Part shown: piece by piece, positions 3,387 through 36,932 of the stretch | Position numbering within the stretch: position 1 is the stretch's first letter | Layout: each line of letters starts with the position of its first letter | Position numbers and translations under genes: made by a program | Notes under the pieces: generated by a model | The model's database searches: none | Seen by the model: the letters and a program-made list of their open reading frames with translations, nothing else | Told to the model about the DNA's origin: nothing | Origin: Anaeromyxobacter dehalogenans 2CP-C | GTDB taxonomy: Bacteria; Myxococcota; Myxococcia; Myxococcales; Anaeromyxobacteraceae | NCBI RefSeq assembly: GCF_000013385.1 | Contig: NC_007760.1 | Span: 4,748,001-4,812,000, forward strand | Length of the DNA stretch: 64,000 nucleotides | Reading direction: 5' to 3'

Positions 3387-4391
3387 ATGGACACTGCGCG
3401 TGAACTCTCGGATCGGCTGGCCACCCTGCTCCGGCGTGAGCGCTCGGCGCTCGCGGAGTTCCTGGTCGCGCTCGCGGGCTTCGATGCGCGGCGCGCGTGG
3501 GCGGAGCTGGGGTACGCCTCGCTCTTCCACTACCTGCACCGGGAGCTCGGGCTGTCGAAGGGCTCGGCGCAGTACCGGAAGGTCGCGGCGGAGCTGATCC
3601 AGGCGGTCCCGGCGGTCGTCGAGCCGCTGCGGGACGGGCGGCTGTGCTTCACGACGATCATCGAGGTGGCGCGGGTCGTCACGGCGGAGAACTGGGCGGC
3701 GGTGCTGCCTCGGTTCTACGGGCTGTCGCGACACGAGGCGGCGGAGGTCGTCGCGGCGCTCGCGCCGCACCCGGCACCGCCGGTGCGGACGGTGCTCACG
3801 GCGGTGCCTCGGGCGCCGGCTGGTTCAACTGTTGAACTGAATGTCCCTGCCGTGATGTCTGGTTCAACTGTTGAACCGGTCGCTCCGGCACCGGGGTCGT
3901 CCCGCTCGGCGGCGCTCACGCCGCTCACGGCGGACCTTCAGCGGCTCCACGTCACGGTAAGTGAACGTTTCAGGCGCAAGCTGGAGCGGCTCCGCGATCT
4001 TCGCCCGGACCTCTCCGACGACGCGCTGCTCGAGGCGGCGGTGGACCTCCTCCTCGCCAAGGCGGAGAAGCGGAAGGGCGCGCTCACGGAGCGGCCTCGG
4101 GCGTCGGTCCGGCCTTCCCGCGATCCGCGTCACATCCCGGCCCATGTTCGCCGCGAGGTCTGGGAGCGGGACCGGGGGTGCTGCCAGTGGCGGCTCGCGA
4201 ACGGCGAGATCTGCGGCTCCACGCACGCGCTTCAGCTCGACCACGTCGTGCCGCGGGCGCGGGGCGGGGAGCCCACCGCGGGCAACCTACGCGTGCTCTG
4301 CGCGGCGCACAACCTCGAGGCGGCGCGGCGGGTGTTCGGCGACGCGCTGATCGACGCGTACGCGCCGGGACGGCGCGTCGGCTCAAGCTGA
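3387..4391 (+). CDS. HNH endonuclease, intact copy
   Basis: The protein has 334 residues. An N-terminal helical region (about 1-125) is followed by a Pro/Ala-rich linker (about 130-185), a second helical region containing LHVTVSERFRRKLERL, and a C-terminal HNH domain. That domain begins HIPAHVRREVWERDRG and carries paired cysteines (GCCQW, EICGS), LDHVVPRARGG and LCAAHN. HNH domains cut DNA with a His-metal centre; the target is unknown. It is homologous to the broken copy at 35.8-36.8 kb, and its upstream region shares repeats with that copy. Two near-identical palindromes sit in the linker coding sequence. The ATG at 3387 has only a weak upstream site. Confidence 0.8.
   Translation: MDTARELSDRLATLLRRERSALAEFLVALAGFDARRAWAELGYASLFHYLHRELGLSKGSAQYRKVAAELIQAVPAVVEPLRDGRLCFTTIIEVARVVTAENWAAVLPRFYGLSRHEAAEVVAALAPHPAPPVRTVLTAVPRAPAGSTVELNVPAVMSGSTVEPVAPAPGSSRSAALTPLTADLQRLHVTVSERFRRKLERLRDLRPDLSDDALLEAAVDLLLAKAEKRKGALTERPRASVRPSRDPRHIPAHVRREVWERDRGCCQWRLANGEICGSTHALQLDHVVPRARGGEPTAGNLRVLCAAHNLEAARRVFGDALIDAYAPGRRVGSS
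3822..3838. repeat. Palindrome in the HNH linker, copy a
   Basis: GGTTCAACTGTTGAACT is a near-perfect inverted repeat with one central base and one mismatch in the last position. It encodes GSTVEL in frame and recurs 39 bases downstream. Confidence 0.7.
3861..3877. repeat. Palindrome in the HNH linker, copy b
   Basis: GGTTCAACTGTTGAACC is a perfect 8-base inverted repeat around a single T. It encodes GSTVEP in frame, exactly 13 codons after copy a. The broken HNH copy has a different palindrome in the corresponding linker (36246-36265). Confidence 0.75.
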
Positions 4392-34666: not shown

Positions 34667-35356
34667 GTGGACAGAGCGAAGGTGATGAGAGAGGTACGGG
34701 GCTGGACGCTCACCATCCTCGCGGTGCTCGCCTTCCGGACGTTCCTCTACGAGGCCGTCTACATCCCGTCGGGCTCGATGCTGCCGACGCTGGAGATCGG
34801 CGACTACGTCATCGTGGAGAAGTGGGCCTACGGCGCGCGGCTGCCGTTCACGGCGACCGCCCAGGCCACCTGGGCCACCCCGAAGCGCGGCGACATCGTG
34901 GTGCTGCTCGCGCCGCCGGGGAACCCGCGCGACGACGACCTCATCAAGCGGGTGGTGGCGGTCGGCGGCGACACGGTCGAGATCGTGGACGGGCACCTGG
35001 TGCTGAACGGCCAGCCCGTGCCCCGCGAGCGGATCGCCGGCTCGTGCGGCTACTGGGACCGCCCCGAGGGCAGCGGCTGGCGCGAGGAGCCGTGCGTGGA
35101 CGCGGTCGAGCAGCTCGGGCCGCACCGCTACCACACGTACTGCACCCCGTACCAGGAGTGCGGTGACGTGCCGCCGCAGAAGGTGCCGGAGGGCACGGTG
35201 TGGCTCGCCGGCGACCACCGCGACCACTCCGCCGACAGCCGCGTGTTCGGCCCCGTCCCCGTCGGCCGCATCAAGGGCCGCGCCTGGATCGCGCTCGCGT
35301 CCTGGGGGCCGGGCGGGCCGCGGTGGAATCGGCTGTTCCACTTCGTGAATCATTAG
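34667..35356 (+). CDS. lepB: Signal peptidase I
   Basis: The 229-residue protease has a single N-terminal TM, catalytic Ser37 in PSGSMLPTL and catalytic Lys94 in DDDLIKRVVAVGGD. GDHRDHSADSR is the conserved C-terminal box. It cuts signal peptides on the outer face of the inner membrane. AGGAG precedes the GTG at 34667; ATG at 34685 is an alternative. It sits 14 bases after the permease, as the last gene of the export operon. Confidence 0.93.
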   Translation: MDRAKVMREVRGWTLTILAVLAFRTFLYEAVYIPSGSMLPTLEIGDYVIVEKWAYGARLPFTATAQATWATPKRGDIVVLLAPPGNPRDDDLIKRVVAVGGDTVEIVDGHLVLNGQPVPRERIAGSCGYWDRPEGSGWREEPCVDAVEQLGPHRYHTYCTPYQECGDVPPQKVPEGTVWLAGDHRDHSADSRVFGPVPVGRIKGRAWIALASWGPGGPRWNRLFHFVNH

Positions 35357-35358
35357 GC

Positions 35359-35463
35359 GTCCGCTCGCCCTGAGCTCGTCGAAGGGCGTGGGTGTCCGCT
35401 CGCCCTGAGCTTGTCGAAGGGCGTGGGTGTCCGCTCGCCCTGAGCTTGTCGAAGGGCGAGCGT
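35359..35463. repeat. Three tandem 35-base REP-like palindromes
   Basis: Units start at 35359, 35394 and 35429. Each holds CCGCTCGCCCTGAGC, a C/TTGTCGAA core and GGGCG on the return arm. Units 2 and 3 are nearly identical; unit 1 has one C-for-T change. They immediately follow lepB and abut the HNH element. Confidence 0.85.
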
Positions 35464-35469
35464 GGGGTC

Positions 35470-35546
35470 GGCTTCGAGGGGGAAGCGACGCTCGGGAGCC
35501 GGCCCGCGTGACCGGAACCGGCGCTGCGGGGATCGGCTCGCGAGAG
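35470..35546 (+). repeat. Left inverted repeat flanking the broken HNH gene
   Basis: This 77-base sequence begins GGCTTCGAGGG and ends GATCGGCTCGCGAGAG. Both ends are perfectly repeated, inverted, at 36922-36932 and 36857-36872; the middle matches with scattered substitutions (about 70-75 percent overall by eye). Confidence 0.72.
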
Positions 35547-35609
35547 CTCGTGGGTGCGGCGCGGGGCGCGGAGGGCGTGCGCCAGGTCACTCACTGAAAG
35601 TGACTATCC

Positions 35610-35623
35610 GCTTGCAGCCCAAC
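35610..35623 (+). repeat. 14-base box shared by both HNH upstream regions
   Basis: GCTTGCAGCCCAAC is identical to 3163-3176. Confidence 0.5.
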
Positions 35624-35815
35624 GGGAACGCGCTGCGCGCTTGACGGAGTTGGCGCCGGGAGCGAAGCCCGCGAGCGGGATCGCTGGGGCGCAGGGGCCT
35701 GGTGAGCCTGAACGGCGTGGCGGCGGTGCCGGGCAACGAGCGGAGGGGTCGCGGAACCCTGATGGCGTTCGCCCGTCCTGTGCGATCCTCGTGCGTTTCA
35801 CGATGGGCGAACTGA

Positions 35816-35890
35816 CTCCGCCATGGCGTGGCGCTCGGCACGGAGCAGGTCGACGAGACGCTTCGTGAACTCGGTGGCGTTGTCCCATGC
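35816..35890 (-). other. Inverted 5' fragment of the broken HNH gene
   Basis: Read on the minus strand, this segment encodes DNATEFTKRLVDLLRAERHA followed by MAE. It aligns with the first residues of the intact HNH protein (MDTARELSDRLATLLRRERS, then ALAE), with 13 of 24 residues identical. An ATG at 35888 has one extra G after it, which would frameshift even a restored gene. Confidence 0.72.
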
Positions 35891-36245
35891 CCGAAGCATC
35901 GCACGCGAAGGCTCTCGGCGGGCTCGGCCCAGCTTCGCAAGACGGCCGCCGAGCTCATCAACCGGTACCCGGCGATCGAGGAGGCGCTTCGCGAAGGGAA
36001 GCTCTGCCTGTCGTCCGTCTGCGAGCTGGCGAAGGTGGTGACGTCCGAGAACTGCGCGGAGGTCCTGCCGCGGTTCTTCGGACTGTCGAGCCGGGATGCA
36101 GCGGGCGTGGCTGCGTCCATCCGTCCAGTCGAGAACCCGCCCCACCGCGAGCTCGTGGTGCCGCTCCGGGCCAACGCGCTCGTGGCCGTCCCGGAGCCGG
36201 CATCACGCGACGCCGCGTCCTCGTCGGAACCCGACCGGGTCGTTT

Positions 36246-36265
36246 CATTTCATGCGCATGAAATG
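36246..36265. repeat. Perfect 20-base palindrome in the broken HNH linker
   Basis: CATTTCATGCGCATGAAATG is identical to its reverse complement. It lies in the linker-coding part, the region where the intact copy carries its own two palindromes with a different sequence. Confidence 0.8.
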
Positions 36266-36856
36266 GGTTCGGCCGTCTCCGTGCCGGAGCCGCTCGCGCC
36301 CGTGCCGCAGGCGGCCTGCGCCGTGGTGCCGGTCGCGAAACGGAGCTCGGTGGACTGGCTCTGCGCGGACCAGGCCCGCATGCACCTCACGGTCTCCAAA
36401 GCCTTCCTCAGGAAGCTCGATGCCGCCCGCGATGCGCTCTCCCACTCGATGCCGGGCGCCACCCGGGAGAACGTCCTCGAGGCGGCGCTGGACCAGCTCC
36501 TGGCCGAGCGGGCACGCCGCACGGGGCTCACAGCCAAGCCGAAGGAGCGCGTCCGTCCTTCGAAGCCGGACCACATCTCGGCCCACGTCCGCCGCGCGGT
36601 CTGGGAGCGCGACGGCGGGCGGTGCACGTTCGTCCTCGCGTCCGGCGAGCGATGCGGCTCCACGCATCGGCTCGAGCTCGACCACGTCGTGCCGCGGGCG
36701 CGCGGCGGGGCCTCGACCGTGGACAACCTCCGGATCCGCTGCCGAGGTCACAACCTCGAGGAAGCGCGCCGGGTCCTCGGGGACGCGCTGATGGATTCGT
36801 ACGCGGGGACACGCCACGCCAGCTCCGCCTGACGCGCCCCCGCCCCGCCCTCGGGC

Positions 36857-36932
36857 CTCTCGCGAGCCGATCGCTCCGCCGCGGCTCCGGGCACGCGGAC
36901 CCGGTCCCGGACGCCCTCGCACCCTCGAAGCC
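36857..36932 (-). repeat. Right inverted repeat flanking the broken HNH gene
   Basis: This 76-base sequence is the inverted partner of 35470-35546. It begins CTCTCGCGAGCCGATC and ends CCCTCGAAGCC, both exact complements of the left repeat ends. It lies 24 bases after the HNH stop and 17 bases before the ligase stop. Confidence 0.72.

Follow-up and report, generated by a model that had tools for sequence, protein, structure and literature searches.

Genes that join an N-terminal DUF222-like domain to a C-terminal HNH nuclease domain, present in many copies per genome, are known as the DUF222-HNH family (REP13E12, or 13E12 repeat, family) of actinobacteria; the link between REP13E12, HNH and DUF222 is drawn in PMC10589994. 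The titles and first lines of abstracts in the open-access literature yielded no description of in-gene palindromes or of a ParB-like fold for DUF222. Free-standing HNH homing endonucleases likewise have their genes scattered over many sites, and near relatives seem to acquire and lose them. Proteins with the DNA-binding fold of ParB, Noc and KorB have palindromic sites, namely parS, NBS and the KorB operator. Both ParB and Noc bind palindromes with a specificity set by four interface residues (PMC7383237). Fusions of a ParB part, with its CTPase fold, to HNH have been described as well (Kaljevic et al. 2025, PMC12704722).

The window, by which we mean the whole stretch of 64,000 nucleotides that was analyzed (G000:C1:4748001-4812000; genomes are labelled G and loci L, G000 being the genome that holds the window), has a G+C content of 74.4% and lies in a genome of one contig of 5,013,479 bases. 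Two of its HNH genes match each other: copy A at 3387-4391 and, at 35828-36832, copy B, which has the gene for a signal peptidase on one side and that for an ATP-dependent DNA ligase on the other. There are 17 protein matches of the family in G000, some of which are pieces of one copy, and relatives were found by sequence in Anaeromyxobacter and other Myxococcota. The genes share the domain order and multiplicity of the DUF222-HNH family, although copy A stays below the DUF222 cut-off (21.9 versus 24.4 bits). The N-terminal domain has a weak DUF222 match in 20 of 21 members (best E 2.9e-6), and several copies of G000 and G004 score above the cut-off. Scores for the HNH domain (PF01844, cut-off 21.4 bits) are 23.8 bits for copy A, 26.4 for copy B and 19.2 for L048. 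Our overall reading, which we consider fairly probable, is that copy B is an inversion-deletion in decay, and that in intact copies a palindrome in the linker DNA is the site of the protein's own helix-turn-helix, so that the nuclease would be directed at its own gene. Copy A and the flanks of copy B are as follows.

3387-4391, plus strand: copy A, an intact family member of 334 aa, modelled here
35423-35811, plus strand: conserved non-coding 5' flank, which several paralogues match at 74-75% identity over a length of ~390 bp
35470-35570, plus strand: repeat of the 5' flank, with an inverted copy beyond the gene (75% identity)
36833-36932, minus strand: the inverted copy of that repeat, kept at the same locus in G004 and G001

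The 5' flank contains GATCGGCTCGCGAGAG, TTGCAGCCCAAC, GCTTGAC and GTGCGTTT. Its conservation suggested an IscB-like RNA-guided element, a candidate that was rejected: NCBIfam IscB scores are 20.5-28.6 bits against a cut-off of 175, and no omega RNA was found, with no Rfam match at gathering score in the window, L048, L049 or L050. A tandem unit of ~35 bp, similar to TCCGCTCGCCCTGAGCTTGTCGAAGGGCGTGGGTG, is present three times at 35356-35470 and has matches elsewhere too, for example at L053. The matches listed for plasmids and phages cover the HNH part only.

An HNH unit of ~1.7 kb is present in G004 and G001 and absent from G000 (L225 versus L059); even near relatives can thus differ in the copies they have, as with homing endonucleases. 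Comparison with the empty site of the G004 copy at 1746k gave a difference of ~1.7 kb, with 47 bp in G000 and no clear target duplication. As a homing test, this one locus, filled in G004 and G001 and not in G000, implies no site or mechanism. The family further differs from homing endonucleases in two ways: we saw no intron or intein context, and the site proposed here is internal to the gene instead of being an empty insertion site.

In a model of copy A, for which 26 sequences were used (mean pLDDT 79.8), residues 1-125 form a helical domain, followed by a linker and the HNH domain. The linker is disordered, with residues 140-188 below 50 pLDDT. An AlphaFold model of residues 1-133 (mean pLDDT 92.8, pTM 0.84) places a helix at 46-53, a turn and a helix at 58-73. 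When this N-terminal model was aligned structurally, the best 13 matches were all Spo0J, ParB, Noc or KorB, with Z of 6.7-9.2, values which for helical bundles (Z under about 13) may mean only a common arrangement. The top match to the modelled fold (residues 1-128) covers 113 aligned residues at an rmsd of 3.4 Å. The next row has a Z of only 3.9, and because of this gap below the ParB rows we trust the likeness beyond a common helical arrangement. Foldseek returned ParB, Spo0J or Noc chains in 22 of the first 24 rows, with weak E-values (0.77 and up), so the ParB link rests on the structural alignment of the model. A sequence profile of the domain searched against the PDB found no ParB (best E 0.34).

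We model the N-terminal domain as a DNA-binding domain fold of the ParB/Noc/KorB type. ParB proper was rejected, since no Pfam match to the ParB-CTPase domain was found in the family protein, which begins with the DNA-binding domain. The family would share with ParB, Spo0J, Noc and KorB both this modelled fold and palindromic targets. It differs from ParB and Noc in that no CTPase or dimerization domain was found, an HNH nuclease is present instead, and the palindrome is part of the very gene that encodes the protein. The fusions of Kaljevic et al. 2025 have the CTPase fold, whereas only the fold of the DNA-binding domain is modelled here.

Copy B departs from this architecture at its 5' end, where the following features were located.

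35815-35908, minus strand: inverted block made up of pre-start bases, the start codon and the first ~25 codons, with 83-91% DNA identity to paralogue start regions on the opposite strand
35908-35912, no strand: right junction, where 91 bp of the intact copies (about codons 26-55) are absent; the corresponding gap segment of the paralogues is unmatched
35828-36832, plus strand: remaining open frame of 334 aa with a GTG start, its body in frame and without stops
35912-35941, plus strand: the recognition-helix module that is left, LSAGSAQLRK (type 2)
36246-36265, no strand: perfect 20-bp palindrome CATTTCATGCGCATGAAATG in the linker (type 2); no other perfect even palindrome of the window is as long
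36647-36745, plus strand: HNH nuclease domain PF01844, intact in sequence (26.4 bits, cut-off 21.4)

An earlier note on this DNA had proposed that the first ~25 codons of copy B are inverted, and the reverse matches to paralogues bear this out. The best reverse match of the block is L048, 91.5% identical over 94 bp (E 7e-32). On either side of the block, plus-strand matches to the same paralogues cover the left flank (35423-35811) and the body (from 35910/35912). The inversion had been placed at 35816-35890; with the pre-start bases included it extends over 35815-35908. Its minus strand encodes DNATEFTKRLVDLLRAERHAMAE, and the 13 residues said to be identical to copy A were recovered over 23 aligned residues instead of 24. 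A loss of codons beside the inversion was also correctly seen, with ~28 codons to be replaced by the 91 bp (about 30 codons) that lie between segment and body in the paralogues. Once aligned with 14 relatives, the flipped block is in register with normal starts, with an extra G directly after the usual ATG. This alignment and the DNA-level matches dispose of the concern that the N-terminal similarity is coincidental. We examined 41 loci; segment and body are both present at 29 of them, in the normal relative orientation in 28 cases and in the opposite one in a single case, copy B. The inversion is confirmed as real, far beyond chance at the DNA level. We give hardly any credence to an assembly or sequencing artefact at the site: G000 is represented by one assembly only, but that genome was assembled as one contig, and the block has substitutions of its own and the extra base, unlike a misassembly of existing copies.

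The flip had been read as either simple decay or a reversible switch that went wrong. A phase-variation switch inverting the 5' end of the gene and damaged later would account for a block placed over the gene start, where systems with invertible promoters or starts have theirs. Against it, 91 bp are lost, 28 of the 29 comparable copies are in one orientation and no inverted repeats bound the block. The words offered as such repeats, GTGCGAT-CT (near 35781) and GTGCGATGCT, run in the same direction in aligned intact copies and seem inverted in copy B because the second one lies inside the flipped block. The inverted repeats found, of ~100 bp (35470-35570 and 36833-36932), enclose the whole gene and do not lie at the block edges. 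The sister genomes, in which the earlier note had suggested comparing the locus, do not have the other orientation: what remains at the copy B locus is the 3' flank with two palindromes and the last codons in G004, and the 3' flank with one palindrome in G001. As most of the gene is lacking there, the sister loci show decay and not the other orientation. On this evidence a switch is extremely improbable, and simple decay fits both the inversion and the loss. We read copy B as an inversion-deletion in a decaying copy, one-way and not a switch; the inversion itself is ordinary decay. Deletions are found in other family copies too, for example L056, L111 and L128.

Short inversions reportedly arise by template switching, as in a study of human-chimpanzee microinversions. 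Copy B resembles these in its ~94-bp inverted block, the adjoining loss and the few bases shared at the junctions, and differs from them as a multicopy bacterial gene whose mechanism is read from its anatomy only. At the left junction GGGCGAA is followed by (CTG)ACTCCGCC, and at the right one CGCGAA is followed by GGCTCTCGG. Each junction has 3-5 nt in common between the candidate partner sequences (GAA or GAACT on the left, GAA on the right), which lends template switching weak support, as words this short can be chance. The simplest route would be a single template switch during replication that gave inversion and loss together: synthesis would exit the strand before the start codon, copy back along the opposite strand and resume downstream. 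Alternatively, inversion and deletion could have been two events at short shared words.

Either way, copy B has lost its normal start together with helices 1-3 of the DNA-binding domain as modelled, so that it can no longer encode the protein in intact form. Neither the HNH domain nor the linker palindrome was touched by the rearrangement. The first ~28 codons of the frame from 35828 are antisense of the flipped block, and HNH protein is encoded from about residue 57. This frame could be a working chimaera of an antisense-derived N-terminus, the recognition helix and the HNH domain. It is open for 334 codons, and its body has no stops and 24 private residues in 297 codons, inside the range of 6-26 in 16 intact copies. 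However, helices 1-3 of the modelled domain are gone, open antisense frames are common at 74% G+C, and an intact body is in any case what a recent event would leave behind; we regard a working chimaera as improbable. Since the copy B body is no more degraded than intact copies, we take the damage, which is fixed in the one assembly analyzed, to be probably not old.

The palindrome that survives in copy B has counterparts in many other copies. The window contains 35 perfect even palindromes of at least 14 bp, the next longest after CATTTCATGCGCATGAAATG being 16 bp. Other copies have TTCGGGCGCCCGAA, TTCATGCGCATGAA, GTTCAACTGTTGAAC or others at the corresponding place in the linker. Copy A has two, of type 3.

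3823-3837, no strand: type 3 palindrome GTTCAACTGTTGAAC in the copy A linker
3861-3877, no strand: second type 3 palindrome, GGTTCAACTGTTGAACC, in the copy A linker

A perfect linker palindrome of at least 14 bp was found in 24 of 26 copies, against 1.95 expected from codon shuffles, counts that are not independent tests because the copies share ancestry. In a larger set of 83 distinct copies, 43 have a palindrome (counting those with at least 4 A/T) and 40 lack a perfect one. At least ten different perfect cores occupy the corresponding place in the family. More distant copies in Myxococcota have other perfect palindromes of 16-24 bp, for example ACTTCTGACGTCAGAAGT, AGTCCAAACGTTTGGACT and GCGATTCCCGACGTCGGGAATCGC; 11 of the 16 distant loci examined have one. 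The linkers of L198, L199, L211, L192 and L204 have no palindrome, and L139 and L140 have no perfect one. In a survey of 17 DUF222 loci (L226, L227, L232, L235, L236, L241, L243, L247 and L248 were judged), the distant loci L226 and L247 have the same palindrome core twice and L227 and L243 have no palindrome. In A. oryzae the copies have the palindrome only with an interruption, as GTTC-N7-GAAC (in 8 of 8 and in 9 of 10). Those from A. oryzisoli are mostly without a palindrome, and the copies with GAAFYRKT, mostly from this species, have neither a perfect palindrome nor GTTC-N6..8-GAAC (0 of 16).

In the copies that have a palindrome, its type follows the sequence of the helix-turn-helix. All 14 copies with LSAGAAQYRKT have TTCGGGCGCCCGAA, all five with SAGSAQLRKT have TTCATGCGCATGAA, all nine with LSKGSAQYRKV have GTTCAAC-N-GTTGAAC and all three with LSKGAAHYRKT have GTTCAACCGGTTGAAC. 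Among the first 14, L059 also has type 2 and so carries two palindrome types (1 and 2), and L129 comes from another lineage, its locus, L152, being 54% identical to L048. Across the 83 copies, each module found in several copies goes with one core, except for one copy that has a second core too. We compared the two best-sampled types over 291 fully occupied non-linker columns in 15 copies, leaving out L059. Type 1 (n = 11) and type 2 (n = 4) are split at four sites only, 51 (R/H), 55 (G/K), 60 (A/S) and 63 (Y/L), all in or at the helix-turn-helix. Of the 1365 ways of labelling 4 of the 15 copies, only the true one reaches four separating sites. The divergence between the types, over and above that inside each type, peaks at codons 46-69 and in the linker; the separation is 0.10-0.19 in the module versus 0.004-0.07 at codons 76-135 and is near zero beyond codon 192. 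Copy B keeps the type-2 residues S60 and L63 together with the type-2 palindrome, as such a code predicts. In their number the four sites recall the four specificity residues of ParB and Noc.

A palindrome that changes with the helix-turn-helix, in a gene whose modelled domain is of ParB type, is in our view best explained as being recognized by the protein that the surrounding gene encodes. In intact copies the linker palindrome would then most likely be the site of the helix-turn-helix of the same protein, which would direct the nuclease to its own gene and paralogues. The likeliest consequences would be self-regulation, or break-induced gene conversion between copies.

The linker palindromes could instead be dispersed elements, terminators or hairpins unrelated to the protein, and their tie to the helix-turn-helix a matter of common ancestral copies. 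The copies are related by descent, a module and its linker might be alleles linked from long ago, and this shared ancestry is the main rival to self-recognition. Across nine genomes of the genus the 24 type-1 sites comprise 16 in HNH genes or gene fragments, three in remnants and five elsewhere, one locus being beside a tRNA; of the nine type-2 sites, eight are in HNH genes and one is in a remnant. The palindromes also outlive the gene at the sister loci. However, the sequence that separates module from linker scarcely tracks palindrome type, at least ten perfect cores stand at the corresponding place, and the modelled domain resembles proteins that bind palindromic sites. We think unrelated palindromes unlikely rather than far-fetched. 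A general genome repeat was considered for TTTC-N8-GAAA and rejected, as it has seven sites in G000, three of which are the type-2 palindrome in HNH genes.

Self-recognition can be extended to the HNH DUF222 proteins of Myxococcota at large, whose DUF222 may be a DNA-binding domain of ParB/Noc type and whose genes may each contain, in the DNA for the disordered linker, the palindromic site of their own protein; site and recognition helix would change together, the rest would be exchanged freely, and the arrangement may drive gene conversion or copy-number control. We hold this wider proposal tentatively, with slightly more doubt than belief. The family suggests a testable function, tied to the ParB/Noc fold, for DUF222 in multicopy nuclease genes. 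Matched pairs of protein and site would form a natural set for reading a DNA-recognition code, and a nuclease with its target in its own reading frame, if true, would represent an uncommon kind of selfish or self-limiting element.

One type-1 palindrome outside HNH genes, at L123:1579 (G000:C1:3760078), has as neighbours a sequence resembling a tRNA and an open frame resembling an integrase gene, and is also present in G004 and G001.
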